A stretch of 64,000 bases of DNA from an uncultured Pseudomonadales bacterium (GTDB lineage: Bacteria > Pseudomonadota > Gammaproteobacteria > Pseudomonadales > Azotimanducaceae), in assembly GCA_958296025.1 (NCBI GenBank), contig OY282430.1:62001-126000 (forward strand). The letters are read 5' to 3'. Under the pieces are notes generated by a model. It was not told where the DNA came from and searched no databases. It saw only the letters and a program-made list of their open reading frames with translations. The translations under genes and the position numbers were made by a program. Positions 4,613 through 28,856 of this stretch are shown here, piece by piece (within the stretch, counting starts at the first letter, position 1; each line of letters opens with the position of its first letter).

Positions 4613-6895
4613 TCACCGCTCAATGACCGGAAGCATGGCTTCCGAACACCGGAGATCCACCAGCCCCTGACCGAATTCACGGTCAATGCCCGGTGCGCCG
4701 ATGTCCTGCGCACAGTGTTTCAGCACACGCACCACCTCCGCAGCGCTCTCATAGAGCTGAAAGAGGTGGAAGACCATGGCACTGAGTTTCGCGGTCGCAC
4801 CGGAGGTGTGACCGATATCCAACACGGTGAAACAGTGTTCCATGAAGTCACCGCACTTGTAGACATCCCGGTCCGGCACGATCGCGCCGGACTGTCGGCG
4901 GATTGCCGCGGTCGCCATCAGCCCTTTCCCCGTGTTCAGCGCGTCGCGCATATCGTAGTAGGAGGTTTCGTTCCTGCTCCAACCGCAGGAAGTGATGGTA
5001 TCCGTCCGCCAGATATCCCGATGCTGCGGTCCCTTGATACAGGGATTCGGTGACCCGTTGGTGAACCGCACATTCCCGGCAGCGACCGGGACCACCATGT
5101 TGAGCGATCGGAGCCGCGCGTCGTCACCCTCGCCGAACGCGTTGCCCACCGACCGGTTCACCACCAGGGTCTCGGCGCGCAGGGCGCGGTGCACGGGGCG
5201 GAGGAAGCCTTCAAGGCCGGCAACCGCAGTGTCTCTATCGTCCCTCAACTCAGGACCGGGCACGACGATGTTAGCGCTCGGCACGCCTTCTGCCCGCATA
5301 TGGCCGAGCATGCGCTCCGCGTGCGTGCCGCTTAGGGCTGCACCCGCCACTAACTCCCAGATCACCAGCTTCTTCCGGTGTCCGCCGGCCTCGGTAATGC
5401 GTTCCAGGAGGCCGAGCAGTCCGGGGAAGTTTTTCGTGTTCACAAACACCGACCGGTACGCCGGGAGCGTGGAGAGGTTCGTCAGATGGCCGGTAGGGGT
5501 CTCCATGAGGTTCATGACGGTGAGCGTTCGCTCATTGATCGCACCGATATCGGTGTAGCCGAATTCACTCATCCGGAGCCGCCACTTACCCGTGCCGTCA
5601 CCGAAAAATTGCTCCAAAAACGCCGCATCGGTGCGGCGCACCTGATGGCGTTCCAAATGGCCCGTACCGACCGAGCTGGTGAGCGTCCCGGCATCATCCA
5701 CACCTTCAAAGTTCACGAATGCCCGCTGATCGGACGCGTTGAGCGTCCGCACGATACTCCGCTGCGTCGTATTGCTCGCCGGATTGAAGGTGGCGACCTG
5801 GTAGTCAAGGACCCCGGCATGCACCGTATCGTGCAGCGCGGTCAGGAAGCCGTCCTGCTTGGTGCGCATGTAACTGAGCACCCGTACGGTACCGGTCACG
5901 GTCAGATGCCAGTCGCCGGTACCGTCGCCGATACCGGTGATCAGCTTCCGGTCGTTGCCGTGCTCCAGATCATCGGCGTTGAAGTGCATCGCTTCATTCG
6001 CGCCGACGGAGAGCCGTACCGTACCGCGTTCCGTGGCGGAATCGTCAAATGCCCTGAAGATCACCGTCTGCTCCGTATCCGTCTCGTTGATGATCCGGAC
6101 GAAGCCCTGCCGGTTCTCCGAAGCCGCGGGGAAGAGGGGCACCAGGGAGGTGCCTGCTTCCGGCGCGGTGGAGAGGTTCGTCAGATGGCCGGTGGGGGTT
6201 GCCATGAGGGACATGACGAGGAGCGGTCGGTTCGCGGTCACCCTGAGGCGCCACTTGCCCGTGCCGTCGCCGAGTCCCATGGTTTCCAGTTCCTGTGCCG
6301 TGAGCACGCTTGCCGCGTTGGCGGCGATGCGTGCCGTGACGGTGCTGCGTCCTGCGTTGCCCCGGTCATCGGTGCCCGCGATGGTCGCTGACACTGCGGT
6401 GGCGGAAGGATTCACGATGCGCAGGATACTCCGCTGCCTCGTGTTGCTTCCTGGGTTGAAGATATGCACCCGGTAGGCGCCGTCTTCGTCTCTGGGCACG
6501 GTGTCGTGCAGGGAGGTCAGAAAACCGTCCTGCCTGGTCCGCATGTAAACGGGAGCCGTGAAGACGAGGTCACTGGTCAGTTCCAGACGCCAGTTACCGT
6601 CGCCGGGACCGATGCCCGTCAGAATGCCCTTCGCCGTGTTGCCGTTCTCAAGATCGTCCGAGTTGAAGTGTTTAACTTCTTCTCCTTCCTCAAACGCTAT
6701 GGTTTCCGTCCGCCGGGCACCGGTATCGGTGTAGGCGGTGATGCGCAGCGTGCCGGCATGGGCATACGGGTTGATTACCCGTATGAAGCCCTGCCGGTTC
6801 TCCGAAGCCGCGGGAAACAGGGGCACGGTCTGTGTCACTGCTGCCGCTTCACAGACAAGCAGCAATGGCAGAATGCCTACGGCAAATCGGCGCAT
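4613..6895 (-). CDS. Secreted four-module protein with divergent subtilase-like domain, copy 1
   Basis: The protein has 760 residues. Residues 1-19 form a Sec signal peptide (MRRFAVGILPLLLVCEAAA). Four related beta-rich modules follow at about 20-140, 141-248, 249-364 and 365-478. Modules 1 and 3 open with VPLFPAASENRQGF and close with YMRT.QDGFLT.LHDTV. Modules 2 and 4 open with FNP.SNT.QRSI and close with TPTGHLTNLST. The C-terminal part (about 485-760) reads like a reduced S8 subtilase. It has SGTH with His525, LVVNRSVG at 577-584, VAAGN with Asn608 in the oxyanion-hole position, HTSGATA with Ser698, and the family's closing DIGAPGIDREFGQGLVDL. The usual catalytic Asp segment appears as LVIWE, with Glu514 or none. 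The role is probably an extracellular or periplasmic protease or binding protein; this is inference. The longer reading frame upstream of 6895 is rejected because the signal peptide starts here. Confidence 0.85.
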   Translation of the reverse strand: MRRFAVGILPLLLVCEAAAVTQTVPLFPAASENRQGFIRVINPYAHAGTLRITAYTDTGARRTETIAFEEGEEVKHFNSDDLENGNTAKGILTGIGPGDGNWRLELTSDLVFTAPVYMRTRQDGFLTSLHDTVPRDEDGAYRVHIFNPGSNTRQRSILRIVNPSATAVSATIAGTDDRGNAGRSTVTARIAANAASVLTAQELETMGLGDGTGKWRLRVTANRPLLVMSLMATPTGHLTNLSTAPEAGTSLVPLFPAASENRQGFVRIINETDTEQTVIFRAFDDSATERGTVRLSVGANEAMHFNADDLEHGNDRKLITGIGDGTGDWHLTVTGTVRVLSYMRTKQDGFLTALHDTVHAGVLDYQVATFNPASNTTQRSIVRTLNASDQRAFVNFEGVDDAGTLTSSVGTGHLERHQVRRTDAAFLEQFFGDGTGKWRLRMSEFGYTDIGAINERTLTVMNLMETPTGHLTNLSTLPAYRSVFVNTKNFPGLLGLLERITEAGGHRKKLVIWELVAGAALSGTHAERMLGHMRAEGVPSANIVVPGPELRDDRDTAVAGLEGFLRPVHRALRAETLVVNRSVGNAFGEGDDARLRSLNMVVPVAAGNVRFTNGSPNPCIKGPQHRDIWRTDTITSCGWSRNETSYYDMRDALNTGKGLMATAAIRRQSGAIVPDRDVYKCGDFMEHCFTVLDIGHTSGATAKLSAMVFHLFQLYESAAEVVRVLKHCAQDIGAPGIDREFGQGLVDLRCSEAMLPVIER

Positions 6896-7446: not shown

Positions 7447-7626
7447 GTGAACGAAGCAACGATGGCCCTAAGAGCAACTGAAACTGACCTTCCCTTGGAG
7501 AACCTCGAAATTGATGTCAGTCAAATCCCCAGCCCTGCTCTTGCTAGGCTGGTCGAGGAGGTTAGGAACGACGACCCTCTAATCCCGCAAGCCTATGACC
7601 GAGTGCATCATCGACACAACCGCTAG
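7447..7626 (+). CDS. RiPP precursor peptide with Tyr/His-x-Arg core
   Basis: A 59-residue peptide starts at GTG with AGGAGG five bases upstream. Its leader is acidic (LPLENLEIDVSQIPSPALARL, about residues 15-34), and a short helix-like stretch, VEEVRNDDPLIPQ, follows. The extreme C-terminus, AYDRVHHRHNR, reads as three successive aromatic-x-Arg units: YDR, HHR and HNR. Radical SAM enzymes of the FxsB/XyeB/GrrM type join an aromatic ring, including Tyr or His, to the beta carbon of the residue two positions on, so the tail is the expected substrate pattern. The radical SAM gene begins 26 bases downstream and two more oxidative enzymes follow. No Cys or double-Gly is present. The identity is inferred from position and pattern, not from a recognised family. 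Confidence 0.75.
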   Translation: MNEATMALRATETDLPLENLEIDVSQIPSPALARLVEEVRNDDPLIPQAYDRVHHRHNR

Positions 7627-7652: not shown

Positions 7653-8804
7653 GTGTTGGAAATTGACACGGTCTTGGTGAAGGTGGCCAGCCGATGTAAT
7701 ATAAACTGCTCGTACTGCTACGTTTACAACATGGGAGATACGCAGTGGGCCAGTATGCCCAAGCAGATCTCCCATGCGACGACAGCAGCCTTATCCAAAA
7801 ATTTGGAAACATTGGCCGACGCTCAAGAAAGACGATTCGCTGTAGTGTTGCATGGTGGAGAACCGTTGCTACTAGGATACAAGAAGCTGTCATACCTGCT
7901 CCTAAGCCTCCGAAAGACTCTTTCCACGGACTACTATCCGTTGAGTATTCAGACAAATGGCATATGTATAACTGATGACATCCTGGATCTTTGCTCAGAG
8001 CATCGTGTAAGCCTTAGCGTGAGTATTGACGGCCCCCAAAATGTCAATGACCGCCACAGGATAGATCATTTAGGCCGGGGAACTTATGCTCGAATTATCC
8101 GAGGCATCCAAAAACTCCGAGACCATCCAGACTCGGAATTTTTGTACGCTGGCATCTTATCTGTGATTGACCCCGAATCTGACCCAAGCGAGGTGTATTC
8201 ATCATTAAAGGACCTTGACGCTCCTAGTATGGATTTCCTATATAGGGACGGCAATCACACAGAGCTTCCTCCCGGAAAGAAGACCTTGCGATCTACTGAA
8301 TACGGCCAATGGTTGGTGGCTCTCTTGGGTGTATATCTAGCAGACCCTAATCCGCCCCGAATTCGATTCCTGGATGACATGATAAAACTGGTTCTTGGTG
8401 GTTACGGCACCAAGGAGGGGTTAGGATTTACTGATTACGGGATCATCATTATTGATACGGATGGATCCATATCGAAAAACGATACTCTAAAAAGCTCGTA
8501 TAATGGCGCGGACCGCTTCTCTCAGCCCTGGTCAGTTCACGCTCACAACCTTGTCGATATCTTGGACTCACCGGAATTTTCTGAATACCACGCCTTGCAG
8601 AGACCAACTGCCTCGTCATGCCTCTCATGTCCGGAACTAAAGGTATGCGGAGGCGGGATGCCTCTGCATAGATGGGGTAAGCAAAATGGGTATGACAATC
8701 CGTCGGTCTATTGCGCTGACCAAATGATTCTTATTAGCCAAGTTCGACATCAAATTGGATTGATAACAGGCGAGAAATTGGCGTATGAGCGACCATCTTG
8801 TTGA
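7653..8804 (+). CDS. Radical SAM/SPASM peptide maturase (FxsB/cyclophane-type)
   Basis: This is a 383-residue enzyme. The radical SAM cluster motif CNINCSYC (Cys15, Cys19, Cys22) sits in KVASRCNINCSYCYVYNMGD, a signature of the FxsB/XyeB-like branch that builds three-residue cyclophanes in peptides. VVLHGGEPLLLG is the SAM-binding GGEP motif. The C-terminus carries a SPASM-type cluster, CLSCPELKVCGGGMPLHRW, at about 333-352. The start is GTG with CAGGAGGG upstream. The predicted reaction is C-C crosslinking of Tyr or His rings to Arg beta carbons in the upstream peptide; the family assignment is strong, the bond type inferred. No RRE or occluding domain was recognised. The gene overlaps the next one by 20 bases, implying one operon. 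Confidence 0.9.
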   Translation: MLEIDTVLVKVASRCNINCSYCYVYNMGDTQWASMPKQISHATTAALSKNLETLADAQERRFAVVLHGGEPLLLGYKKLSYLLLSLRKTLSTDYYPLSIQTNGICITDDILDLCSEHRVSLSVSIDGPQNVNDRHRIDHLGRGTYARIIRGIQKLRDHPDSEFLYAGILSVIDPESDPSEVYSSLKDLDAPSMDFLYRDGNHTELPPGKKTLRSTEYGQWLVALLGVYLADPNPPRIRFLDDMIKLVLGGYGTKEGLGFTDYGIIIIDTDGSISKNDTLKSSYNGADRFSQPWSVHAHNLVDILDSPEFSEYHALQRPTASSCLSCPELKVCGGGMPLHRWGKQNGYDNPSVYCADQMILISQVRHQIGLITGEKLAYERPSC

Positions 8805-9381
8805 CTTGCATATCTCCGGGCCGTTTGCCGACCCGTTTAGTCATTTTCTATCACATAAAGTCTTTAAACCGGACGTGAGTCAAAGAATATTGACCTGGCT
8901 GGAAAACACCAGCCGCTGGAAGCTGGTGGAAACTAACTTTTACGAGCAATTTGAATTTAGTCTCTTGGACTGTCGCCCTCCCAAAGGCCTCGGGTTGCTG
9001 CGCTCACCTTTTTTCCTTAAGTCCCTAGGTAATCGGTTGGAGAAGTTGTTCAACACGAGTCTCGACGAACATCCCCATATCACAGCGCATAAGTTGGTTC
9101 CGGGGCAAAGTATTAGGCTTCACAATGATTTCATTCCGGGGGGTGAAACTCATCGAGTTCTCATTCAACTAAATGGGGGCTGGAATACCGCTCAAGGTGG
9201 GCTTCTGGTCTTTTTTGGCGGTGATTGTTCGGAGGATGTGCGTAAGATATTTCATCCTCGGCACAATAGCGCCATTGGATTTGCGATATCCGAGAGGTCT
9301 TACCACGCCGTATCCACCATCCACACAGGGGAGCGCTTTACACTCGTCTATTCCTTTTCCGAGAGATTGACCGGTGCGTGA
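8785..9381 (+). CDS. Fe(II)/2-oxoglutarate-dependent oxygenase
   Basis: The 198-residue protein has the double-stranded beta-helix facial triad: HxD in RLHNDF (His113, Asp115) and His174 in SYHAVS. ERFTLVYSF follows, with Arg184 at the 2-oxoglutarate-binding position. GGLLVFF and IQLNGGWN are typical of prolyl-4-hydroxylase-like oxygenases of the 2OG-FeII_Oxy group. The N-terminal 90 residues lack the metal motif and may bind the peptide. It overlaps the radical SAM gene by 20 bases and the HExxH gene by 8, so it most likely hydroxylates the same precursor. The target residue cannot be told from sequence. A role outside the peptide pathway is possible but unlikely with this spacing. Confidence 0.88.
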   Translation: MSDHLVDLHISGPFADPFSHFLSHKVFKPDVSQRILTWLENTSRWKLVETNFYEQFEFSLLDCRPPKGLGLLRSPFFLKSLGNRLEKLFNTSLDEHPHITAHKLVPGQSIRLHNDFIPGGETHRVLIQLNGGWNTAQGGLLVFFGGDCSEDVRKIFHPRHNSAIGFAISERSYHAVSTIHTGERFTLVYSFSERLTGA

Positions 9382-10252
9382 TATTCAGACCCAAGTTTTG
9401 TCTGTCGTAGATAAATATCCTAGTTGCCTGTGGACTCCAAGTCTTGCAAAACTGTTGGCAGAGCATAAACAACTAGGTCTCCTTCAACAGATCGGAATGG
9501 CGATTGGCGACTACGGGACCCATCGCCTATTAGTGGGCTCAAGTTCTAGCTCTCGAAGAGTTGTCGCTTCGGAGCCAATCTCTCACACGGAAAGTGACGA
9601 CGAGCTGAAGCAGGTTATATCGATAGAAGTTCTGCCAAAGGACGACCGGGAGAAATACCGTGAGCGTGGGGTAGCTTTTTTTTCAGAGCACGAGTTGGCT
9701 TGCTCGACGGTACTTGAATGTTTTAGGGACGCTGTAGAAATCATAAATTTGATACCCCAGCTTGGAGAAACCATTGGTTTTCTGGCTAGGATATGTCACA
9801 TGCTTAAGTCTGATGATGATGGTTCGGATATAAGTTACAGTGACCCTCTTGTTCCATTTTCGATCTGGGTGTCCGTCCCGCGAGGCAGAGTAGCGAACGA
9901 TAGTTTGAGGGTGTCAGAATCCATCTTACATGAATCCATGCATCTTCAGCTAACCCTTATTGAAGGGGTTTTGCCGCTTATTCACTCTCAGGAGCAGACC
10001 TTTTTTTCCCCGTGGAAAAAGGCATGGCGACCATCACTAGGTATCCTGCATTCCTTGTATGTTTTTCGTGCCATTGACCAATTTTTTGAGCGACTACTAT
10101 CTCGTTCCATATGGGCTCCTGAGGATATTAGGCATATGGAGAGGCGCCGCATGCAAATTGGGCAACAAATTTCGCAATTTGAAGGGATTCTCGAGTCTTC
10201 AGACTTTACAGATGTGGGAAGGAATTTGGTGACAAGGCTACTGACTGTTTAG
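9374..10252 (+). CDS. HExxH-motif peptide-modifying enzyme (aKG-HExxH type)
   Basis: The 292-residue protein has a zincin-like motif, ESILHESMHLQL (His186, Glu187, His190), followed by W.PSLGILHSLYVF with His226. This spacing and the downstream aromatic/His block are characteristic of the HExxH proteins that accompany or are fused to FxsB-type radical SAM enzymes. Some members are described as 2-oxoglutarate-dependent peptide beta-hydroxylases rather than proteases. The start is GTG, overlapping the oxygenase stop by 8 bases. The N-terminal ~180 residues are unassigned. With two different oxygenase folds in one operon, dual hydroxylation of the cyclophane peptide is a reasonable inference. 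Alternatively it may be a leader peptidase, since no other protease gene is present. Confidence 0.75.
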   Translation: MRDIQTQVLSVVDKYPSCLWTPSLAKLLAEHKQLGLLQQIGMAIGDYGTHRLLVGSSSSSRRVVASEPISHTESDDELKQVISIEVLPKDDREKYRERGVAFFSEHELACSTVLECFRDAVEIINLIPQLGETIGFLARICHMLKSDDDGSDISYSDPLVPFSIWVSVPRGRVANDSLRVSESILHESMHLQLTLIEGVLPLIHSQEQTFFSPWKKAWRPSLGILHSLYVFRAIDQFFERLLSRSIWAPEDIRHMERRRMQIGQQISQFEGILESSDFTDVGRNLVTRLLTV

Positions 10253-10339: not shown

Positions 10340-11125
10340 CTAAGCCAACTGTGCCCCAGTCCTGCAATCTTCCTCAAATCGCTTGGCAAACGCACTGTAC
10401 TCCGCCTGATCGGAAACGGCGGACTGGATTTTCTGCTTAGCCAGTTCAACCAGTTCCACGAAGTCCGTATTATTGGACATTTCATCCCCCAATTTGACTA
10501 TGCGAATAAGGATACGCAACGACTGCAACCGCTCTCTCCGGTTCTCTTCTAAAGCAACTCGATTGAGGTCGAGGCAGTCAATGGTCTCTTTCCCCCGCTC
10601 TGTACGGTAGCCTATGGTAGATCCAGAAAAATGGAAGTGCGTATTGGGATCATCTCTTGCCGGATGTACAAGCACCGGTTTCTCACATTCAATAGGATCC
10701 TCGTGACTCCGAGCTCGATTGCCTTCATCTAGAAGAGGGAACAGATCGTTCTTATTTGTGTTGCAAACGGGACAACACATAAGGAGATTATCCCAATCAT
10801 AAACTAGCCAATAGTATCCCGGATATAGTCTAGGATGTTCTATCGATTGCCGTGTGCAGCTTTTTGGACGATAATGTTCGATGTTTGGGTAAGTCGCAGC
10901 GAGAATCTTAGTTTCACAGTAGCAGCACTTTCCGTATTGTGCGTGGAGTAGGTGTTCTCTCACTTCACTGTTTCCATAGATATTGGGGTCAAAGATAAAC
11001 CTTTTCACGCCTGACCTGTAGTCTTCGCCAAATTTAATGTAGGAATCACAATCCTCCTTGGTCCTCTGACCTCCCTTGCGCGAAAGCTTTGGTGGAACAC
11101 TGGGCGGCTTTACGATTCTAATCAT
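10340..11125 (-). CDS. HNH endonuclease, Septu PtuB-like
   Basis: This 261-residue protein carries a cysteine-rich HNH/McrA-type nuclease: GKCCYCET, then IEHYRPK with the catalytic His, then YYWLVYDWDNLLMCCPVCNTNKNDLFP. The two CxxC knuckles bind a structural Zn. An N-terminal tail and a C-terminal helical region (RRERLQSLRILIRIVKLG) flank the core. The start at 11125 is preferred; a GTG at 11137 would sit directly on the AAGGAG site. It lies 16 bases after the ATPase, same strand, the order and pairing of Septu-type systems (PtuA ATPase + PtuB HNH) that degrade nucleic acid on phage infection. GC content is lower than in the flanking repeated genes, suggesting transfer. Confidence 0.85.
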   Translation of the reverse strand: MIRIVKPPSVPPKLSRKGGQRTKEDCDSYIKFGEDYRSGVKRFIFDPNIYGNSEVREHLLHAQYGKCCYCETKILAATYPNIEHYRPKSCTRQSIEHPRLYPGYYWLVYDWDNLLMCCPVCNTNKNDLFPLLDEGNRARSHEDPIECEKPVLVHPARDDPNTHFHFSGSTIGYRTERGKETIDCLDLNRVALEENRRERLQSLRILIRIVKLGDEMSNNTDFVELVELAKQKIQSAVSDQAEYSAFAKRFEEDCRTGAQLA

Positions 11126-11141
11126 TAGTAGCAGCACTCCT

Positions 11142-12524
11142 TCACTTTGTTTCTGCGATAATGGCCGCCGCTTTGCGTATTATTTCCATAGCTTCCCGAT
11201 CCTTCGGAGTTTCTGCGGTTGGCAGGCTATCAAGTTCGTCCTCAATTTCGCTCAGCCGTATCCTATCTGTATCAGATAGGCTCGGCTTGCTGCACAAATC
11301 GGTCTTTTCATCGATAAGAGCTTCAACGTGAGGGCTTCGTGAGGAGGATAGGCCAAAAAGTGGGCTGGTGAGAATTTGGTCAACTCTCCACCCCTCAACG
11401 GCTTCTGGATTGTTTTCGATTACTACCTGCCCACACTCTTGCCGCAATACAACTAGATTAGCCTTTTTTGTCACCTGAGCCATCAGGGGACTATGTGCAG
11501 TTGCAATAAACTGGATATTACGAAAAAGGTCGCTCAAATACTTAATTATGCGTCGCTGCCATAGGGGGTGTAAATGAAGGTCGAGTTCGTCTATTATCAC
11601 AATGGCAGGCTCAACTAGCGGATTATCGCTTTCCGGGTAGTACCGATATAGTCGAGTTGCGAGGTCCAGGACCAAAGCTAATGTTGTTTGGTAGCCTAGG
11701 CTTAGAGCAGAAAGTGGGATGGAGCCATAAGGAGTAAGAAATCTAACACCACCACCACTATTCTCATCTGGGATTCCGAGGCTCTTTAAGCTCTTTGGTC
11801 CCAAAATTTCTATATCTCGTGCATTCTTAACATCTGGAAGGATTGTAGCGAGCATTTCCTTTACCTTTTCTAGATGTGACGCGACTACTTTTCTTTTGAT
11901 GGAAGCGTAATCCAGGTCCAGTAGAATGTTTTCTGCGTCGTAGAGCTCTGTTGCTCCCGAAAAGAGAGAAGCTAGAGGGTCACGAAGTTCTGCGTTATGG
12001 ATATTTAGTCTGCCCATGCGCCGATCTGCGCCGTAGGCAAAAATGGGCAGACCTTGAGACGGAAATTCTATCTCTTTGGGAAGCTCGCCACGCGGATCGA
12101 AATCCGCCAACTTTTGATTGTTCCCCTCCATTTTGATACCTGTTTTAATTTCTAGTGCTTGCCCATTTTCTGCTGTGTTGAGTTCTTGACCGGTACTCAA
12201 TGTCGCCTTGATGTTGGCTTCTGCTGATTGCGCTACGCGAAGCAGTGAATCGAGCACTTTGTTTTCTTCTTCAGCTAGCGCGGGCTGAATATCTGTCGAG
12301 GCATCTTGGTCCTGGGAGTTGGTAGTTATTTTTGGAACAGGCCTCATCCAAGCTAGGCATTGGAGTAAAGTGGTTTTTCCAACGCCGTTGTCTCCCAAAA
12401 GCAGGGTCCATTGAGGTAAGCGACCGTCTGAGCCACACAGATTTAGAACTTGTCGTTTCCCAAAACAGCGGACATTCTCTAGTTCAAGAGATTTGTAGTA
12501 AATTAGTGACTGCGGATTTGCCAT
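11142..12524 (-). CDS. AAA/ABC-type ATPase, Septu PtuA-like
   Basis: The 460-residue SMC/RecF-like ATPase has Walker A in LLGDNGVGKTTLLQ (about 42-55), an ABC signature-like LSALSLGYQTTLALV, Walker B with DExD in AIVIIDELDLHLHP (about 308-321), and an H-loop in IATAHSP. There is no long coiled coil, unlike Rad50. This matches AAA_21-type ATPases of Septu/PtuA and retron-associated effectors, which form a complex with the HNH partner encoded directly downstream. SD AAGGAT precedes the ATG by about 7 bases, and a TATAAT box lies 33 bases upstream. Copy 2 of the repeated secreted gene lies upstream on the same strand without a full terminator, so read-through transcription is possible. Confidence 0.87.
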   Translation of the reverse strand: MANPQSLIYYKSLELENVRCFGKRQVLNLCGSDGRLPQWTLLLGDNGVGKTTLLQCLAWMRPVPKITTNSQDQDASTDIQPALAEEENKVLDSLLRVAQSAEANIKATLSTGQELNTAENGQALEIKTGIKMEGNNQKLADFDPRGELPKEIEFPSQGLPIFAYGADRRMGRLNIHNAELRDPLASLFSGATELYDAENILLDLDYASIKRKVVASHLEKVKEMLATILPDVKNARDIEILGPKSLKSLGIPDENSGGGVRFLTPYGSIPLSALSLGYQTTLALVLDLATRLYRYYPESDNPLVEPAIVIIDELDLHLHPLWQRRIIKYLSDLFRNIQFIATAHSPLMAQVTKKANLVVLRQECGQVVIENNPEAVEGWRVDQILTSPLFGLSSSRSPHVEALIDEKTDLCSKPSLSDTDRIRLSEIEDELDSLPTAETPKDREAMEIIRKAAAIIAETK

Positions 12525-12562: not shown

Positions 12563-12639
12563 CTGTTTTTAGCCTGTGTCACCCTGCTTTTTCTGCCGTT
12601 TTACCTCTTGATGGGGGCGTTGAGGGGTGCTGTAAGGCG

Positions 12640-20927: not shown

Positions 20928-21031
20928 GAGTTGCACTGCTCCGCTTGGTGGCAGTAGGCGCTTGCAGCGGCGCATCTCCGCGTCCCCCACCCGCCAGGAG
21001 TTGCGTGCCTCCGGGTTCAGCCAATGGCCGG
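20928..21031. repeat. 3'-flank repeat of the secreted-protein genes, copy B
   Basis: About 104 bases, from GGGAGTTGCACT through CCGCTTGGTGGCAGTAGGCG to GGTTCAGCCAATGGCCG, match 26437-26540 with few differences. The second part also matches 16381-16452. It lies 34 bases downstream of the copy 4 stop. Confidence 0.85.
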
Positions 21032-21064
21032 CATACGCCGCGGGGATAGAACAGACGGCAGGCA

Positions 21065-23341
21065 TCACCGCTCAATGACCGGAAGCATGGCTTCCGAACA
21101 CCGGAGATCCACCAGCCCCTGACCGAATTCACGGTCAATGCCCGGTGCGCCGATGTCCTGCGCACAGTGTTTCAGCACACGCACCACCTCCGCAGCATTC
21201 TCATAGAGCTGAAAGAGGTGGAAGACCATGGCACTGAGTTTCGCGGTCGCACCGGAGGTGTGACCGATATCCAGCACGGTGAAACAGTGTTCCATGAAAT
21301 CACCGCACTTGTAGACATACCGGTCCGGCACAATCGCGCCGGACTGCCGGCGAATTGCCGTAGTCGCCATCAGTCCTTTTCCCGTATTCAGCGCATCGCG
21401 CATACTGTGGAACTCCGAGAGTTCCCAACCGCAGGCGGTAAAAGTATCCGTCCGCCAGATATCCCGATGGTGCGGGCCCTTAATACAGGGATCCGGTGAC
21501 CCGTTGGTGAACAGCACATTCCCGGCACCGACCGGGACCACCATGTTGAGCGACCGGAGCCGCGCGTCGTCGCCCTCGCTGAACGCGCTGCTCACCGACC
21601 GGTTCACCACCAGGGTCTCGGCGCGCAGGGCACGGTGCACGGGACGGAGGAAACCTTCAAAACCGGCATCCCCACCATCTCTAAAGTCCGTCAACTCAGG
21701 ACCGGGCACGACGATGTTGGCGCTCGGCACGCCTTCTGCCCGCATATGGCCGAGCATGCGCTCCGCGTGCGTGCCGCTTAGGGCTGCACCCGCCACTAAC
21801 TCCCAGATCACCAGCTTCTTCCGGTGTCCGCCGGCCTCGGTAATGCGTTCCAGGAGGCCGAGCAGTCCGGGGAAGTTTTTCGTGTTCACAAACACCGACC
21901 GGTACGCCGGGAGCGTGGAGAGGTTCGTCAGATGGCCGGTGGGGGTCTCCATGAGGTTCATGACGGTGAGCGTTCGCTCATTGATCGCACCGATATCGGT
22001 GTAGCCGAATTCACTCATCCGGAGACGCCACTTCCCGTCACCGTCGCCGAAAAATTGCTCCAAAAACGCCGCATCGGTGCGGCGCGCCTGATGGCGTTCC
22101 AAATGGCCCGTACCGACCGAGCTGGTGAGCGTCCCGGCATCATCCACGCCTTCAAAGTTCACGAATGCCCGCTGATCGGACGCGTTGAGCGTCCGGACGA
22201 TACTCCGCTGCGTCGTATTGCTCGCCGGATTGAAGGTGGCGACCTGGTAGTCAAGGACCCCGGCATGCACCGTATCGTGCAGCGCGGTCAGGAAGCCGTC
22301 CTGCTTGGTGCGCATGTAACTGAGCACCCGTACGGTACCGGTCACGGTCAGATGCCAGTCGCCGGTGCCGTCGCCGATACCGGTGATCAGCTTCCGGTCG
22401 TTGCCGTGCTCCAGATCATCGGCGTTGAAGTGCATCGCTTCATTCGCGCCGACGGAGAGCCGTACCGTGCCGCGTTCTACGGCGGTATCGTCAAATGCCC
22501 TGAAAATCACCGTCTGCTCCGTATCCGTCTCGTTGATGATCCGGACGAAGCCCTGCCGGTTCTCCGAAGCCGCGGGGAAGAGGGGCACCAGGGAGGTGCC
22601 TGCCTCCGGCGCGGTGGAGAGGTTCGTCAGATGGCCGGTGGGGGTTGCCATGAGGGACATGACGAGGAGCGGCTGGTTTGCGGTCACCCTGAGGCGCCAC
22701 TTGCCCGCTCCGTCGCCGAGTCCCATGGTTTCCAGTTCCTGTGCCGTGAGCTCGGTCGCCGCGTTGGCGGCGATGCGTGCCGTGACATTTCTGCGTCCTG
22801 CGGTGCCCCGGTCATCGGTGCCCGCGATAGTCGCGGCAACCGCCGTGGCGGAAGGATTCACGATGCGCAGGATACTCCGCTGCCTCGTGTTGCTGCCGGG
22901 GTTGAAGATATGCACCCGATGGGTGCCGTCTTCATCTCTGGGCACGGTGTCGTGCAGGGAGGTCAGAAAGCCGTCCTGCCTGGTCCGCATGTAAACGGGA
23001 GCCGTGAAGACGAGGTCACTGGTCAGTTCCAGCCGCCAGTCGCCGTCGCCGGGACCGATGCCCGTCAGAATGCCCTTCGCCGTGTTGCCGTTTTCCAGAT
23101 CATCGGCGTTGAAGTGTTTGACTTCTTCTCCTTCTTCAAACGCGATGCGCTCCGTCCGCCGGGCACCGGTATCGGTGTAGGCGGTGATGCGCAGCGCGCC
23201 GGCATGGGCATACGGGTTGATCACCCGTATGAAGCCCTGCCGATTCTCCGAGGCGGCGGGAAACAGGGGCACGGTCTGTGTCACTGCTTCCGCTTCACAG
23301 ACAAGCAGCAGAGGCAGAATGCCTACGGCAAATCGGCGCAT
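21065..23341 (-). CDS. Secreted four-module protein with divergent subtilase-like domain, copy 4
   Basis: This copy has 758 residues, with signal peptide MRRFAVGILPLLLVCEAEA, four beta-rich modules and the S8-like C-terminus. It combines blocks found in different siblings. SGTHAERMLGHMRAEG is as in copy 1, FRDGGDAGFEGFL is close to copies 3 and 5, and ACGWELSEFHSMRD is as in copy 3. RNVTARIAANAATEL is shared only with copy 5. The oxyanion region reads PVGAGN, and NRSVSS replaces NRSVGN. Such mosaicism indicates gene conversion. No terminator hairpin remains (CCGCGGGGATAG). Downstream on the same strand are the AbiEii-like operon genes. Confidence 0.85.
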   Translation of the reverse strand: MRRFAVGILPLLLVCEAEAVTQTVPLFPAASENRQGFIRVINPYAHAGALRITAYTDTGARRTERIAFEEGEEVKHFNADDLENGNTAKGILTGIGPGDGDWRLELTSDLVFTAPVYMRTRQDGFLTSLHDTVPRDEDGTHRVHIFNPGSNTRQRSILRIVNPSATAVAATIAGTDDRGTAGRRNVTARIAANAATELTAQELETMGLGDGAGKWRLRVTANQPLLVMSLMATPTGHLTNLSTAPEAGTSLVPLFPAASENRQGFVRIINETDTEQTVIFRAFDDTAVERGTVRLSVGANEAMHFNADDLEHGNDRKLITGIGDGTGDWHLTVTGTVRVLSYMRTKQDGFLTALHDTVHAGVLDYQVATFNPASNTTQRSIVRTLNASDQRAFVNFEGVDDAGTLTSSVGTGHLERHQARRTDAAFLEQFFGDGDGKWRLRMSEFGYTDIGAINERTLTVMNLMETPTGHLTNLSTLPAYRSVFVNTKNFPGLLGLLERITEAGGHRKKLVIWELVAGAALSGTHAERMLGHMRAEGVPSANIVVPGPELTDFRDGGDAGFEGFLRPVHRALRAETLVVNRSVSSAFSEGDDARLRSLNMVVPVGAGNVLFTNGSPDPCIKGPHHRDIWRTDTFTACGWELSEFHSMRDALNTGKGLMATTAIRRQSGAIVPDRYVYKCGDFMEHCFTVLDIGHTSGATAKLSAMVFHLFQLYENAAEVVRVLKHCAQDIGAPGIDREFGQGLVDLRCSEAMLPVIER

Positions 23342-23787
23342 GGCGGATTTTCCTTTGGTTGTTGAATTTGCCGTCCACGGCCTTGTCGGCGTTCGCTGCG
23401 CCGGCGGACGGGCTGCGGGGCTGAGTATATGCATTTCTCCACCCCGTGCTACCATGAGGCGCATGACCGCACATGAGCACAACCAACTGCAGGTCGTTGA
23501 CCAGAGGGGGCACCGTGGTCAGGTCTGACGTCGAAAGCAGGCCAAAGCCCGATCTCGCCAAGGTTGACTCGGTGCTTCGTACGCACTGCTGGTTGCCGGG
23601 GAGCAGGACGACCACTTCGACCGGCAGTTGGGGCCGATCCACCTACTGAAATACGTCTATTTGGCGGACCTTGCCTATGCCGAAAAGCATTTGGGTCTTA
23701 CCTATACCGGCATACCATGGAAATTTTATAAGTTCGGCCCTTGGTCCCAGATGGTTCATGATCGAATTGAACCAGCGCTTCATGCAA
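23341..23787. repeat. Duplicated flank, copy B
   Basis: This is the second copy of the segment at 15001-15449. It includes the upstream region of the secreted-protein gene and the beginning of the DUF4065-like gene, with the same apparent one-base deletion. The match ends after CTTCATGCAA. Confidence 0.85.
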
Positions 23788-23801
23788 GTCGAAACCCTTA
23801 G
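23515..23801 (+). pseudogene. Truncated DUF4065-like gene fragment
   Basis: The fragment matches the first part of the gene at 15177-15985: the VRSDVESRPKPDLAKV start, then, after a frame change, LLKYVYLADLAYAEKHLG and WKFYKFGPWSQMVHDRIEPALHA. It ends at a TAG (23799) four codons past the breakpoint. The same frameshift is present as in the longer copy. One residue differs (AYAE for AHAE). Confidence 0.7.
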
Positions 23802-23841
23802 AAAAAGTACAGGATGGGCATTTTAGCGGGGTTTCTGACCG

Positions 23842-24489
23842 CTAAGTAGCTTCCTTCAGAAATGTTTCCCCCGTTTGAGGATTGTAGGTTATCGATACGA
23901 ATCCACCCTTAAGGAAGTTGCTGACTGCCCGCTTGGCAAACGCGGGCAAGTTTGTGCCGCCCGCGTTCCTCACCGACGGTGCCAAGAGTCCATCTAGGCT
24001 AGCAGCCACGGCCTCGACGCCCAAATTGTTGCAGAACCGATAGTCATTGTCGTGCGTGAGGGCAGGCCATTCGGTTTGCTTGGGCCGCAAGTCTTTCACG
24101 TTGCCATTGAAATGGTACATAAAGCGCAAGTACCAAGCCGTTCGTGCATGAGTGGGCTTGCCAGAAACCTGTTTGGAAAACCATTGCTTAACTTCTGCTT
24201 CCGCCGTCGGAGCTTCCATGGCGCCATAAAGCACTGGGAAAGAGCCATCCGAAAAACGTGTGGCGTAGCGGGTTTTTGCCAACCGGGCCTTGGGCTTGAA
24301 AGCCTTGTCAACAAGAGCCTCTGGCTGGGTTGTGACGCCCCGGGCTTCCAGAAATTGCAGGGCTTCTTCAATGCCTCTTTCGTCAAGCCCCTGTGCCTGA
24401 AAAAATTCCGAGGATATTGGAAGGCTTGCCAACCGAATCAACTCAGTCCACTCGGTTCGGGGGGTAATCGACTGAAGCACACCTACCAA
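23842..24489 (-). CDS. RES-domain toxin (NAD+-degrading type)
   Basis: The 215-residue protein carries the RES-family hallmarks: RYATRFSDGSFPVLYGAMEAPTAEAEVKQWF with conserved Arg and Glu, and later LLAPSVRNAGGTNLPAF, which supplies the Ser-containing segment. RES toxins (MbcT-like) break down NAD+ by phosphorolysis or glycohydrolysis and are held in check by antitoxins with an MbcA/ParS/Xre C-terminal domain. Exactly such a gene lies upstream, overlapping by 7 bases. The order antitoxin-toxin on one transcript is normal for this system. The N-terminal ~75 residues precede the core and may contact the partner. Confidence 0.85.
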   Translation of the reverse strand: MVGVLQSITPRTEWTELIRLASLPISSEFFQAQGLDERGIEEALQFLEARGVTTQPEALVDKAFKPKARLAKTRYATRFSDGSFPVLYGAMEAPTAEAEVKQWFSKQVSGKPTHARTAWYLRFMYHFNGNVKDLRPKQTEWPALTHDNDYRFCNNLGVEAVAASLDGLLAPSVRNAGGTNLPAFAKRAVSNFLKGGFVSITYNPQTGETFLKEAT

Positions 24490-25172
24490 CCCGTTGCTGC
24501 TTCAATGTATTCCCTGACAAGCAGGAGATTTTCCATGGACCCTTCCAGCAGGAGTTGCATTGGCACTTTGCCGTCCAATGGCTCATGTGGCTCCCGAAGC
24601 CACTCGTTCTCCACCTCCTCGTCTCGAAACCATTCGGACAGCGTCATCCGCATCTGAATGAGGTAGGCGAGGCGGTCCTTGGCATCGCGTCCTCTAAGCG
24701 CCGTGCGCCCCGCAAGCACATCTGCGGCGTAGCCTTGGTCCGGCAGCTCCAATCCGAGTAAGGGAACGGCGTCTGCTTTATCCAGCCGCCAAGTTTCCAG
24801 AATCTTATTGATGAGCTGTATGGGGCCGGTCAATCTAGCGGCACCCGAGGGAGATGGCGTCGCTGACAGTGGATCTGATGTATTTTCAAGCTGCTCAGTA
24901 GGCCACGATACATCCATCCAACGGTGTGACGGTGTCGGACTACCATGAACAGAGGAAGCGTGGCGGACGCCATTTGGTGCAGCTTCCTCGATTAAGTCGG
25001 AATGCAAGTCGTTCAATGCGTCCTGTGACTGCTCCTCCCATAGCGCTTGGGGTAGGTGGGATTTTCTTGCTCGCCTTGGAACAGACGATGGGGCAAAGTA
25101 ATCCCCGTCATACGAATGCCCTTCATCCTGATCCCAAGTTTGCAGATCCGCTGTTGCAGATTCCATGCTCAC
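24483..25172 (-). CDS. Antitoxin with MbcA/ParS/Xre toxin-binding domain
   Basis: This is a 229-residue protein. The C-terminal part (about 115-229) has IQLINKILETWRLDKADAVPLLGL, RDAKDRLAYLIQMRMTLSEWF and NEWLREPHEPLDGKVPMQLLLEG, the layout of the MbcA/ParS/Xre antitoxin domain that caps RES toxins. The N-terminal ~110 residues are polar and low-complexity, without an obvious helix-turn-helix, so autorepression is uncertain. It overlaps the toxin by 7 bases and the upstream gene by 4 (ATGA), giving a tight three-gene operon. The upstream extra gene is not part of the classical pair. Confidence 0.82.
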   Translation of the reverse strand: MSMESATADLQTWDQDEGHSYDGDYFAPSSVPRRARKSHLPQALWEEQSQDALNDLHSDLIEEAAPNGVRHASSVHGSPTPSHRWMDVSWPTEQLENTSDPLSATPSPSGAARLTGPIQLINKILETWRLDKADAVPLLGLELPDQGYAADVLAGRTALRGRDAKDRLAYLIQMRMTLSEWFRDEEVENEWLREPHEPLDGKVPMQLLLEGSMENLLLVREYIEAATGW

Positions 25173-25921
25173 TCTGCTTCCCCCATTCCAAAGAGGGGTT
25201 TGGCCACGTCAAGGTCGATTCCGCCAAGAAAGGCCGACAACAAGAGCTCCATGTGCAGGAGCTTGTCCTTTAGATGTCGAAATGCCGTGCCCTCGTAGTA
25301 CCAAAGGCGACAGGTGACAGACAGTCCCAGCGGGTCCTTCCCCCTTCCATGGGCGAAGAAGAAGGCTCTCCACTGCTCCTCGTCATTATTTGCGTCAAGA
25401 ATCACACGCGGGTAGATGCACACACTGCCGAAGGCATCCAGATCTCCTTTGAAACTGGGTTCCGTTACTTGGGATAGGTGTTGGTTTGCGTTCGTTGCTT
25501 CGTCATCCAGCCGAAGGGATAAGGTTGACTTGAACGCCGCTGTGCTCACTGTGACATCGGGGAAGACCCTTTTGAGTGTACGTTCGCTCAATGAAATGAA
25601 ATTCCTGCAAATCGCGGCTTGCCCTGCATTTCGCAAAGACTTGAAACTTACGGCCAGCCTGTCCACAGTGACATCGATTAGCCCATGCCCGTTGAACATG
25701 TCGATCCCCACCTGTGGCTCGGAAAGCTGAACCTCCTTGGATATCCACATGTCTTCCGAGCGAATCGGATACTTGGGGCTGACTTCATCATGCAAGCGCC
25801 TCAATACTTCGGGGCTGCGGTCAGCCAAATCAAAGAGCGGAGCCGAGAAAGCAGCCTCGTGCTCGACATCGACCTTTTTTATAGCCACTTGCATCAGGAC
25901 CGCCTCCAATGTGGTCACCAT
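25169..25921 (-). CDS. Hypothetical first gene of the RES/Xre operon
   Basis: The 250-residue product starts MVTTLEAVLMQVAIKKVDVE, with TGGAGG four bases before the ATG at 25921; the longer frame from 25960 lacks such a site. Visible segments are FNGHGLIDVTVDRLAVSFKSLRNAG, LSLRLDDEATNANQHLS, CIYPRVILDANNDEEQWRAFFF and CRLWYYEGTAFRHLKDKLLHMELLL. No transmembrane segment or catalytic motif is evident. It resembles uncharacterised sporadically distributed beta-rich proteins found in defence islands, but I cannot assign a family. The ATGA overlap ties it to the antitoxin, so it may be a third component or sensor. Confidence 0.65.
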   Translation of the reverse strand: MVTTLEAVLMQVAIKKVDVEHEAAFSAPLFDLADRSPEVLRRLHDEVSPKYPIRSEDMWISKEVQLSEPQVGIDMFNGHGLIDVTVDRLAVSFKSLRNAGQAAICRNFISLSERTLKRVFPDVTVSTAAFKSTLSLRLDDEATNANQHLSQVTEPSFKGDLDAFGSVCIYPRVILDANNDEEQWRAFFFAHGRGKDPLGLSVTCRLWYYEGTAFRHLKDKLLHMELLLSAFLGGIDLDVAKPLFGMGEAE

Positions 25922-26009
25922 GACGCCTCCAGCTCGTTCATGGCCGCTAGCCCCGAGCACGACGCCAACAATAGGCTAAAATATGCAGGAACCAAGTGCA
26001 AGCCTTCCT

Positions 26010-26239: not shown

Positions 26240-26434
26240 TTAGGCGGCTTGGGGCGGCGCTCTGACGAGCGAGCGCATGCGTTCCGGGGCGCCCTCCTTG
26301 ATGCCTCCCAGCGCCAACGCCATCATGATGGCCAGCGCCAAGCCGACGCGGGCGGTCATCTTGGCCTTGACTCGAATGGTGTGGTGCTCGAGGTGGAGGA
26401 CGTTGTCCACTCGGGACGGATCCAAGGGCCGCAT
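26240..26434 (-). pseudogene. Transposase C-terminal remnant
   Basis: A 64-residue stretch reads EHHTIRVKAKMTARVGLALA then IMMALALGGI and ERMRSLVR. It matches the second remnant at 49440-49645 (ESHSIRGKDRMAARVGLALA) and looks like the C-terminal end of an IS transposase. No catalytic core or inverted repeats belonging to it are present. Confidence 0.6.
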
Positions 26435-26436
26435 CA

Positions 26437-26540
26437 GGGAGTTGCACTCATCCGCTTGGTGGCAGTAGGCGCTTGCAGCGGCGCATCTCCGCGTCTCCCA
26501 CTTGCCAGGAGTTGCGCGCCTCCGGGTTCAGCCAATGGCC
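26437..26540. repeat. 3'-flank repeat of the secreted-protein genes, copy C
   Basis: This is the near-identical partner of 20928-21031, located 33 bases downstream of the copy 5 stop. Its left edge abuts the transposase remnant, so the junction cargo/IS/repeat/gene is ordered here. Confidence 0.85.
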
Positions 26541-26573: not shown

Positions 26574-28856
26574 TCACCGCTCAATGACCGGAAGCATGGC
26601 TTCCGAACACCGGAGATCCACCAGCCCCTGACCGAATTCACGGTCAATGCCCGGTGCGCCGATGTCCTGCGCACAGTGTTTCAGTACACGCACCACCTCC
26701 GCAGCACTCTCATAGAGCTGAAAGAGGTGGAAGACCATGGCACTGAGTTTCGCGGTCGCACCGGAGGTGTGACCGATATCCAACACGGTGAAACAGTGTT
26801 CCATGAAGTCACCGCACTTGTAGACATCCCGGTCCGGCACGATCGTGCCGGACTGCCGGCGGATTGCCGTGGTCGCCATCAGCCCTTTCCCCGTGTTCAG
26901 CGCGTCGCGCATCGCGTAGTAGGAAGCTTCGTTCCTGCTCCAACCGCAGGAGGTGATGGTATCCGTCCGCCAGATATCCCGATGCTGCGGTCCCTTGATA
27001 CAGGGATCCGGTGAACCGTTGGTGAACTGCACATTCCCGGCACCGGCAGGAAACACCATGTTGAGCGATCGGAGCCGCGCGTCATCGCCCTCGCTGAACG
27101 CGTTGCCCACCGACTGGTTCACCACCAGGGTCTCGGCGCGCAGGGCGCGGTGCACGGGACGGAGGAAGCCTTCAAGGCCGAAATCCCCACCATCTCTAAA
27201 GTCCGTCAACTCAGGACCGGGCACGACGATGTTGGCGCTCGGCACGCCTTCTGCCTGTATATGGCCGAGCATGCGCTCCGCGTGCGTGCCGCTTAGGGCA
27301 GCACCCGCCACTAACTCCCATATCACCAGCTTCTTCCGGTGTCCGCCGGCCTCGGTAATGCGCTCAAGGAGGCCGAGCAGTCCGGGGAAGGTGCTCGTGT
27401 TCACAAACACCGACCGGTACGCCGGGAGCGTGGAAAGGTTCGTCAGATGGCCGGTCGGGGTCTCCATGAGGTTCATGACGGTGAGCGTTCGCTCATTTAT
27501 CGCACCGATATCGGTGTAGCCGAATTCACTCATCCGAAGACGCCACTTACCGTCACCGTCGCCGAAAAATTGCTCCAAAAACGCCGCATCGGTGCGGCGC
27601 GCCTGATGGCGTTCCAAATGGCCCGTACCGACCGAGCTGGTGAGCGTCCCGGCATCATCCACGCCTTCAAAGTTCACGAATGCCCGCTGATCGGACGCGT
27701 TGAGCGTCCGCACAATGCTCCGCTGCGTCGTATTGCTCGCCGGATTGAAGGTGGCGACCTGGTAGTCAAGGACCCCGGCATGCACCGTATCGTGCAGCGC
27801 GGTCAGGAAGCCGTCCTGCTTGGTGCGCATGTAACTGAGCACCCGTACGGTGCCGGTCACGGTCAGATGCCAGTCGCCGGTGCCGTCGCCGATACCGGTG
27901 ATCAGCTTCCGGTCGTTGCCGTGCTCCAGATCATCGGCGTTGAAGTGTATCGCTTCATTCGCGCCGACGGAGAGCCGTACCGTGCCGCGTTCCGTGGCGG
28001 TGTCGTCAAATGCCCTGAAAATCACCGTCTGCTCCGTATCCGTCTCGTTGATGATCCGGACGAAGCCCTGCCGGTTCTCCGAAGCCGCGGGGAAGAGGGG
28101 CACCAGGGAGGTGCCTGCTTCCGGCGCGGTGGAGAGGTTCGTCAGATGGCCGGTGGGGGTTGCCATGAGGGACATGACGAGGAGCGGTCGGTCCGCGGTC
28201 ACCCTGAGGCGCCACTTGCCCGCTCCGTCGCCGAGTCCCATGGTTTCCAGTTCCTGTGCCGTGAGCTCGGTCGCCGCGTTGGCGGCGATGCGTGCCGTGA
28301 CATTTCTGCGTCCTGCGGTGCCCCGGTCATCGGTGCCCGCGATAGTCGCGGCAACCGCCGTGGCGGAAGGATTCACGATGCGCAGGATACTCCGCTGCCT
28401 CGTGTTGCTGCCGGGGTTGAAGATATGCACCCGATGGGTGCCGTCTTCATCTCTGGGCACGGTGTCGTGCAGGGAGGTCAGAAAGCCGTCCTGCCTGGTC
28501 CGCATGTAAACGGGAGCCGTGAAGACGAGGTCACTGGTCAGTTCCAGCCGCCAGTCGCCGTCGCCGGGACCGATGCCCGTCAGAATGCCCTTCGCCGTGT
28601 TGCCGTTTTCCAGATCATCGGCGTTGAAGTGTTTGACTTCTTCTCCTTCTTCAAACGCGATGCGCTCCGTCCGCCGGGCACCGGTATCGGTGTAGGCGGT
28701 GATGCGCAGCGCGCCGGCATGGGCATACGGGTTGATCACCCGTATGAAGCCCTGCCGATTCTCCGAGGCGGCGGGAAACAGGGGCACGGTCTGTGTCACT
28801 GCTTCCGCTTCACAGACAAGCAGCAGAGGCAGAATGCCTACGGCAAATCGGCGCAT
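26574..28856 (-). CDS. Secreted four-module protein with divergent subtilase-like domain, copy 5
   Basis: This copy has 760 residues, with signal peptide MRRFAVGILPLLLVCEAEA and the same architecture as copies 1-4. The module region is almost the same as copy 4 (RNVTARIAANAATEL). The C-terminal domain mixes SGTHAERMLGHIQAEG, FRDGGDFGLEGFL (copy 3-like), NQSVGN, PAGAGN and SRNEASYYAMRD (copy 1-like). His, oxyanion Asn and Ser motifs are present; the Asp region is again LVIWE. The 3' flank keeps TCGGGGTA only, with no terminator, and the RES/Xre operon lies downstream on the same strand. The 5' flank matches copy 4 for about 60 bases before diverging. Confidence 0.85.
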   Translation of the reverse strand: MRRFAVGILPLLLVCEAEAVTQTVPLFPAASENRQGFIRVINPYAHAGALRITAYTDTGARRTERIAFEEGEEVKHFNADDLENGNTAKGILTGIGPGDGDWRLELTSDLVFTAPVYMRTRQDGFLTSLHDTVPRDEDGTHRVHIFNPGSNTRQRSILRIVNPSATAVAATIAGTDDRGTAGRRNVTARIAANAATELTAQELETMGLGDGAGKWRLRVTADRPLLVMSLMATPTGHLTNLSTAPEAGTSLVPLFPAASENRQGFVRIINETDTEQTVIFRAFDDTATERGTVRLSVGANEAIHFNADDLEHGNDRKLITGIGDGTGDWHLTVTGTVRVLSYMRTKQDGFLTALHDTVHAGVLDYQVATFNPASNTTQRSIVRTLNASDQRAFVNFEGVDDAGTLTSSVGTGHLERHQARRTDAAFLEQFFGDGDGKWRLRMSEFGYTDIGAINERTLTVMNLMETPTGHLTNLSTLPAYRSVFVNTSTFPGLLGLLERITEAGGHRKKLVIWELVAGAALSGTHAERMLGHIQAEGVPSANIVVPGPELTDFRDGGDFGLEGFLRPVHRALRAETLVVNQSVGNAFSEGDDARLRSLNMVFPAGAGNVQFTNGSPDPCIKGPQHRDIWRTDTITSCGWSRNEASYYAMRDALNTGKGLMATTAIRRQSGTIVPDRDVYKCGDFMEHCFTVLDIGHTSGATAKLSAMVFHLFQLYESAAEVVRVLKHCAQDIGAPGIDREFGQGLVDLRCSEAMLPVIER

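Follow-up and report, generated by a model that had tools for sequence, protein, structure and literature searches.

The window analysed here, a stretch of 64,000 nucleotides from the one-contig 3.92-Mb genome of an uncultured Pseudomonadales bacterium (C1:62001-126000; GenBank contig OY282430.1), holds five copies of one gene, arranged head to tail on the minus strand between positions 4613 and 28856, with other genes in the four gaps between them (Table 1). The repeated gene codes for a predicted secreted, protease-like protein, with beta domains similar to the Anabaena sensory rhodopsin transducer (ASRT-like) and a domain of subtilisin fold (S8-like). The initial annotation had read five near-identical genes of 758-760 residues here, with a different accessory module in each gap, and had suggested that recombination between the copies could insert, lose or swap this cargo. 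All five are indeed intact open reading frames (ORFs) of 758-760 codons starting with MRRFAVGI, and their alignment bears out the near-identity: the DNA of copy pairs is 93.4-96.5% identical. The homology between copies stops within ~140 bp of the ORF on both sides, except in copies 2 and 4, which also have ~440 bp upstream in common, at 98.4% identity. A tblastn search of the window's own genome gave 26 matches: the five full-length copies of the array and 21 partial ones, all inside query residues 6-484, the part made of beta domains.

The claim of a different module in each gap is confirmed by Pfam, PADLOC and NCBIfam profiles, with some corrections to the labels. The module of gap 1 first described as a ribosomally synthesised and post-translationally modified peptide (RiPP) locus is more specifically a YhhA/YhhB/YhhC group with an aKG-HExxH-type hydroxylase, and YhhA, YhhB and YhhC all exceed curated cut-offs. 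The Septu pair of the same gap, in which the PtuA ATPase and PtuB are adjacent, is strongly matched. The AbiEii label of gap 3 and the RES/Xre label of gap 4 also stand, but the SocA/Panacea (DUF4065-like) match of gap 2 is weak. Ten cargo proteins of the window were compared with PADLOC: the matches are strong for the Septu pair and partial, to pVip models (7.2e-13), for the radical SAM protein, while seven proteins matched nothing. No integrase, transposase or phage family was found among the 14 gap ORFs of the window that were scanned, a scan in which not every ORF met every library and which left the rest of the genome unsearched for integrases.

Table 1. Features of the array and its gaps. 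Positions are those of the window, except in the last row.
Feature	Position	Strand	Remarks
Segment absent at the G008 syntenic site (74 bp there instead)	2671-29139		holds array and AAA_16 ATPase gene 3076-4440
Terminator-like hairpin and T run after copy 1, read by eye	4565-4593	-	not intact after copies 2-5
Copy 1, secreted ASRT-like/S8-like protein gene	4613-6895	-	760 codons
Gap 1: YhhA-family cyclophane RiPP precursor	7447-7626	+	NCBIfam NF041705 60.9 bits, cut-off 36
Gap 1: YhhB radical SAM maturase	7653-8804	+	NF041707 512.9 bits, cut-off 445
Gap 1: YhhC 2OG-Fe(II) oxygenase	8785-9381	+	NF041706 233.3 bits, cut-off 150
Gap 1: aKG-HExxH-type peptide beta-hydroxylase	9374-10252	+	TIGR04267 77.4 bits, cut-off 40
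Gap 1: PtuB (Septu)	10340-11137	-	PADLOC PDLC00339 1e-76
Gap 1: PtuA (Septu ATPase)	11142-12524	-	PADLOC PDLC00304 8.9e-146
Fragment of chromosomal VWA/CoxE-like gene, 3' of copy 2	12635-12692	-	
Copy 2	12719-15001	-	760 codons
Gap 2: SocA/Panacea-like protein, weak match	15290-15985	+	PF13274 5.1e-4, below Pfam cut-off
Gap 2: short SocA partner gene	15975-16376	+	133 aa vs 237 aa in G008
CoxE-like gene fragment, 3' of copy 3	16376-16445	-	
Copy 3	16487-18763	-	758 codons
Gap 3: protein, 369-459 aa by start choice	18745-20124	-	no Pfam, PADLOC or NCBIfam match
Gap 3: AbiEii-family nucleotidyltransferase	19871-20740	-	PF08843 6.6e-12
CoxE-like gene fragment, 3' of copy 4	20926-21023	-	
Copy 4	21065-23341	-	758 codons; longest run identical to copy 5, 662 nt
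Gap 4: shared upstream block and SocA 5' stub	23348-23787		98.4% to 15009-15449; RES block joined here
Gap 4: RES-domain protein	23842-24489	-	PF08808 3.5e-16
Gap 4: Xre/MbcA/ParS antitoxin-like protein	24483-25172	-	PF09722 2.3e-8
Gap 4: protein without match (family libraries)	25169-25960	-	
CoxE-like gene fragment, 3' of copy 5	26431-26534	-	
Copy 5	26574-28856	-	760 codons
Four G008 copies with linker indel	concatenated L026+L027 9770-12017, 17750-20006, 23174-25448; L028 10318-12599		

The alignments indicate that the copies are mosaics. In our own script for the pairwise homoplasy index (PHI) test, none of 1000 shuffles gave a value as low as the one observed for nine copies of the window and of G008 (177 sites), a same-genus genome of 4.31 Mb in one contig. 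The same was true of all 500 shuffles for nine copies of G205, from another genus of the family, and of a chromosome labelled Candidatus Pacebacteria (442 sites). Within a genome, identical runs are up to 662 nt (window copies 4 and 5), 378 nt (copies 1 and 2) and 1065 nt (two G008 copies 1.77 Mb apart) long; between window and G008 copies none exceeds 209 nt. The clearest event is in G205, where the middle copy of an array of three is a hybrid with a single crossover: it agrees with one neighbour at 350 of 350 discriminating columns and with the other at 50 of 50, and switches once, between columns 1966 and 1980. Beside it, 1313 bp of intergenic cargo, consisting of a weakly DUF7931-like gene (below the cut-off) and a 100-aa ORF, are duplicated at 100% identity. 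A hybrid copy next to duplicated cargo is what unequal crossing-over between two copies predicts. Judging by these sequences, recombination between copies reshapes such loci and their cargo; this is evident in G205, and it fits the window.

The array is not fixed in place across relatives. In G008, the sequences that flank it in the window (left up to 2670, right from ~29140) are only 74 bp apart, and therefore 26.5 kb including the array are absent from that site. G008 has its own array elsewhere, at 3.31 Mb, with blocks 93-94% identical to those of the window. It consists of the equivalent of copy 1 and gap 1 (8.0 kb, 93%), one copy, and then gap 4 with copy 5; as in the window, gap 1 and gap 4 keep this order between copies. 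Gaps 2 and 3 (SocA and AbiEii) and copy 3 are missing, and a single copy replaces the window's stretch from copy 2 to copy 4; gap contents thus vary between relatives, as had been anticipated. The fourth G008 copy lies at a third site (1.55 Mb), where a unit of one copy and SocA stands alone. This unit is 96% identical to the window (97.9% in the SocA part) and forms an insert of ~7 kb between ~200-bp direct repeats, at a place where G000 has ~0.9 kb. The flanks of the G008 array match two separate G000 loci, the left one at 2.97 Mb and the right one at 1.45 Mb. Cargo identity between window and G008 is 93.5-97.9%, compared with 82-84% for the flanks of the window's array and 83-97% for the other four flanks compared.

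The boundaries of the cargo are heterogeneous. Just 3' of copies 2-5 lie fragments of a chromosomal CoxE-like gene, which come from the 3' part of one gene and are also found at three further places in G008. Their starts differ between copy 2 and copies 3-5, the latter sharing one fusion, and the junctions vary from +5 to ~+40 bp past the stop codon. The recurrence of these fragments led us to consider site-specific integration at the CoxE-like gene, which we rejected in view of the differing fragment starts, the single fusion of copies 3-5 and the lack of an integrase match among the gap ORFs scanned. No terminal repeats or target-site duplication are visible at the ends of the window's array.

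We consider that the array is probably a repeat locus prone to recombination, in which cargo, defence-type or other, is turned over. Copies that are 93-97% identical over 2.3 kb would undergo ordinary homologous recombination with each other, which would give rise to the mosaics observed. Unequal crossing-over would duplicate or delete the DNA between two copies, a step for which G205 provides sequence evidence and with which the difference between window and G008 is consistent. Exchange with copies elsewhere may then place array segments, or single units of copy and cargo, at other sites; the places are observed and the route is what we infer. New cargo would enter first through non-homologous junctions, observed just outside the ORFs or inside older cargo, by a mechanism that we can only propose.

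Several observations weigh against this reading. The RES/Xre block is joined inside the SocA stub of gap 4, and the SocA partner gene is cut where the CoxE-gene fragment begins; both are non-homologous junctions. Because the RES block starts in the SocA stub and the shared block is 98.4% identical to gap 2, RES has replaced SocA through such a junction. The early suggestion that recombination between copies alters the cargo is supported by the stretch missing from the G008 array, the hybrid and duplication in G205 and the lone unit of copy and SocA in G008, but the RES/Xre and SocA-partner changes bypassed the copies. The ~200-bp repeats and the recurring CoxE-gene fragments could indicate another integration route. 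Synteny also breaks away from arrays (window 2-390 and the outer right flank of the G008 array match other places), and since it breaks where no array lies, a breakpoint at an array is weak evidence. Some within-genome pairs share at most 132-133 nt, no longer than pairs between genomes. No crossover point could be placed in the window and G008 copies, the middle copy of G008 not being visibly half copy 2 and half copy 4. Finally, the number of genomes with known close copies of full length is five.

None of the five copies matched a Pfam family at 1e-3, the Rhs family included, and their putative N-terminal signal sequence was assigned by eye, not by a program. A full-length AlphaFold2 model (13 sequences, mean predicted local distance difference test, pLDDT, of 60.5) shows repeated beta domains at residues ~20-470. 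Its C-terminal half is unusable (pLDDT below 50 from residue 477), and we therefore modelled the C-terminal domain alone. A Foldseek search paired single beta domains with 2ii9 (the Anabaena sensory rhodopsin transducer) and with 1nc7, with a probability of 1.00 and template modelling (TM) scores of 0.60-0.69 by target length. These pairings (E-values ~0.01) are not those of lowest E-value; the best E-values are those of complement proteins, which align loosely over long stretches at a TM of ~0.1. The name "ASRT-like" was coined in this analysis. The C-terminal domain modelled alone (26 sequences) reached a pLDDT of 83.8 and a predicted TM score (pTM) of 0.87, and this model indicates a subtilisin (S8) fold. 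Foldseek gave 45 PDB matches at E<=1e-3, with subtilisins or engineered subtilisins on top (probability 1.00, TM ~0.5), and the domain's profile matched the Serratia extracellular serine protease 8e7f at 8.8e-7. By motif assignment made by eye, the aligned active-site His is nearly invariant and the oxyanion-Asn and Ser are invariant, a likeness to secreted S8 peptidases that adds to that of the modelled fold. The copies differ from these in that the catalytic-Asp position is Glu in the Pseudomonadales copies (Asp in those of a Latescibacterota contig) and the GTSxA motif is altered; peptidase activity is putative.

The ratio of nonsynonymous to synonymous substitution rates (dN/dS) of the five window copies is 0.25 overall, 0.15 in codons 1-480 and 0.40 from codon 481, with the highest 80-codon value (0.64) at codons 481-560. 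In eleven copies of G204 (another genome of the family), G205 and the Pacebacteria record, the 80-codon maximum is 0.70, at codons 241-320, in the beta domains. No 80-codon stretch exceeds 1 in either set. With such low ratios, the genes are maintained as proteins by purifying selection. The most variable DNA stretch lies within the S8-like domain and is followed by a conserved gene end, nearly identical across the nine window and G008 copies. Each of the four G008 copies has a small frame-breaking indel at the same linker, in three different lengths, which the five window copies lack. This linker sits between the beta domains and the S8-like domain, and both halves stay separate open frames.

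Close copies also come from OY282360.1, a 0.72-Mb chromosome labelled Candidatus Pacebacteria, which has three. Of 2565 columns, 2526 agree between one of them and a G205 copy (98.5%), and the variable S8-like stretch is the same allele in both (729/729 columns) while the other copies of the two genomes differ there. The homology runs exactly from the ATG to the stop codon, and the best match outside the copies is 40 bp long (E 0.008). The 16S gene of OY282360.1, which shares its contig with the copies and lies 5.4 kb from the closest one, is ~69% identical over 1.2 kb to those of G000 and G205. Genes for SecD/SecF, DprA, ThyX and a class II tRNA synthetase are among those around the two loci with copies. 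The GC content of the copy is 0.63 against 0.50 around it, and the gene is found in one of the eight genomes of the record's family, namely itself. One allele in two phyla, limited to the ORF, suggests that a resident ORF was replaced through recombination, although a chimeric assembly is not formally excluded. Incoming DNA bearing a copy could recombine at the ORF even without other shared sequence, which would account for sharing that is exact to the ORF. Such a copy would be a recent exchange between very distant bacteria, observed at base level. It is rather unlikely, to our mind, that the secreted-protein ORF serves more generally as a portable homology platform, through which uptake and ORF-confined recombination gain, lose or exchange adjoining defence cargo, with ORF and alleles passing between organisms as far apart as a gammaproteobacterium and an ultra-small Candidatus Pacebacteria. 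A very long ORF of Cys-rich repeats, in which we read thrombospondin-like motifs by eye, is found next to the Pacebacteria copies, and L102 has a 249-bp tandem repeat whose units are ~99% identical (L100 15696-19856 and L102 13102-14720).

The C-terminal domain was matched at 1e-3 in 10 of the 206 genomes of the family. In four of these (G000, G008, G204 and G205), all single-contig, matches cover almost the entire domain with at least 49% identity. Copies with the S8-like domain occur in two of nine same-genus genomes; the other seven are drafts of 80-420 contigs, so absence from them is weak evidence. We found no further arrays in the class: the C-terminal profile matched 24 of 369 genomes, but outside the window's genome the matches are partial and weaker than 1e-10 (best 1.5e-10), and we read them as probably generic S8 sequences. 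A two-motif scan of contigs from 84,980 species gave 14 loci, on three Pseudomonadales records of metagenome-assembled genomes fitting G008, G204 and G205, on OY282360.1, on one Latescibacterota contig and on one gammaproteobacterial contig. A phage or plasmid origin was rejected, as none of the 362 stretches with the pattern in IMG/VR encodes a relative and PLSDB gave no match (an annotated phage collection was not searched). Every close full-length copy found stands on a single-contig or closed record, so fragmented metagenome assemblies may conceal arrays of this kind.

In G204, five copies lie within ~23 kb, of which at least two are broken, and a further one is found elsewhere; the copies of G205 form three groups, of three, two and one. 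An interruption of ~1.3 kb in one G204 copy (L050 1157-5113; array coordinates 20157-24113) partly matches the DNA upstream of another G204 copy at 94-95%. The cargo of relatives, scanned in part, includes in G204 an AAA_15 ATPase with AriA/HEC-02A-type PADLOC matches (8.8e-29), a weakly DUF7931-like gene, unknowns and, in one gap, a DDE transposase-like piece (1.9e-4, below the cut-off). G205 has DUF7931-like genes and, in a gap of its locus G205b, an esterase; McrC-like and restriction-modification-like proteins lie outside its array. Among the scanned neighbours of the Pacebacteria copies no defence system was recognised (by Pfam, and for two of them by PADLOC, one matching a "subtilase" model at 5.4e-7). 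The description of the cargo as defence-type therefore does not extend to the G205b esterase or these scanned neighbours: defence-type cargo is common but not universal. In the Latescibacterota contig (L103 9875-18233), two divergent S8-like copies flank an AbiEii gene (6.4e-47), the same layout far off in the tree, and each copy is preceded by a 117-bp near-identical block (95.7%).

Other explanations were weighed against a repeat locus that turns over its cargo. The most serious, with a chance we would put slightly short of even and compatible with much of that reading, is that the copies are bystanders: a tandem expansion in a region that collects defence genes, where recombination is incidental and the cargo functionally unlinked. 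A second group of defence-type genes indeed lies in the same window, 8-24 kb beyond the array (36835-52358), with an M78 peptidase (capP/RmrA-type in PADLOC), a Schlafen AlbA_2 protein, a PHP/AAA protein matching Ppl (1.2e-39) and a Fic protein matching SoFic (4.7e-24). Defence models were matched by four of the nine window proteins outside copies and gaps scanned with PADLOC, for which reason we do not claim that defence genes are enriched inside the gaps. Non-defence or unrecognised cargo in some relatives and the purifying selection on the copies agree with a bystander role, whereas the presence of the G008 array at another site, cargo travelling with the copies, and the AbiEii gene between the divergent Latescibacterota copies do not. 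Selection might instead act on the copies themselves, as a set of variants of a secreted protein whose S8-like domain is diversified through gene conversion, with the cargo as passengers. The DNA variability of this domain ahead of a conserved end, the allele shared by G205 and the Pacebacteria record among otherwise differing copies, and the dN/dS peak of the window copies would all be expected then. We nevertheless find such a repertoire a doubtful explanation: no tested stretch of codons has dN/dS above 1, the peak of the G204, G205 and Pacebacteria copies lies in the beta domains, and all four G008 copies carry a frame-disrupting linker indel.

A mobile element with its own machinery, such as an integrase or transposase acting in trans on the CoxE fragment or the ORF ends as attachment site, would make homologous recombination secondary. 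The CoxE-like fragments that recur 3' of copies 2-5 and in G008, the direct repeats around the G008 SocA insert and the transposase-like piece of G204 are what such an element could leave. The differing fragment starts, the heterogeneous junctions, the array ends without visible repeats or duplications, and the scanned gap ORFs without integrase or transposase match, within the limits of that scan, make it improbable. Mis-joining of near-identical copies during assembly is the least credible explanation, and we give it very little weight. Repeats of 2.3 kb are its classic cause, and the 100% duplicated unit of G205 could be a graph loop; yet the window copies are 3.5-6.6% apart, the G008 chromosome has two of the gaps in an unchanged order, and the Pacebacteria copies have no recognisable G205 flanking DNA.

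No account of an array like this came up among titles and opening lines of abstracts in the open-access literature, a scope from which subscription papers and bioRxiv were mostly absent. The closest kinds described are recombination-driven hotspots of horizontal transfer (Oliveira et al. 2017, PMC5635113) and Rhs loci (Jackson et al. 2009, PMC2935791). In the former, variable cargo lies between conserved core genes, often without recognisable mobility genes, and is exchanged at the flanking genes. The array resembles them in its variable cargo, in the lack of recognised mobility genes among the gap ORFs scanned and in the recombination signal of the flanking genes. It differs in that one repeated accessory gene, not found in most relatives, forms every flank, where the hotspots, as that source presents them, have core genes, and in that its cargo can in addition undergo duplication or deletion, or lie elsewhere. 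Rhs loci, as outlined in the second paper, have long near-identical genes with a conserved core and a variable part, proposed homologous recombination with circular intermediates, and links to rearrangements. The array shares with this account the long near-identical genes, recombination and a conserved core with a variable part, but shows no match to an Rhs core with YD repeats, has whole genes in tandem with unrelated cargo between them, and keeps a conserved 3' end that is not displaced. From integrons and integrative elements it is set apart by its heterogeneous junctions and the absence of integrases among the gap ORFs scanned. The movement of chromosomal defence genes in the absence of integrases or phages still awaits a full explanation, and recombination at core genes on either flank has been published as part of the answer (PMC5635113). 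Where one repeated accessory gene makes up every flank, the hotspot turns into an array that can expand and whose units can also occur singly at other places; the idea lends itself to direct tests, since a single copy is enough to reveal a crossover product.

Two families of short repeats are dispersed in the window. One, of ~100 bp and 76-91% identity, occurs at 28982-29096, where it adjoins the right edge of the array, at 36390-36479 and at 49934-50047, with eight similar places in G008. The other, of 56-166 bp and 89-96% identity, is found at 43446-43609, 57471-57636 and 61393-61449.

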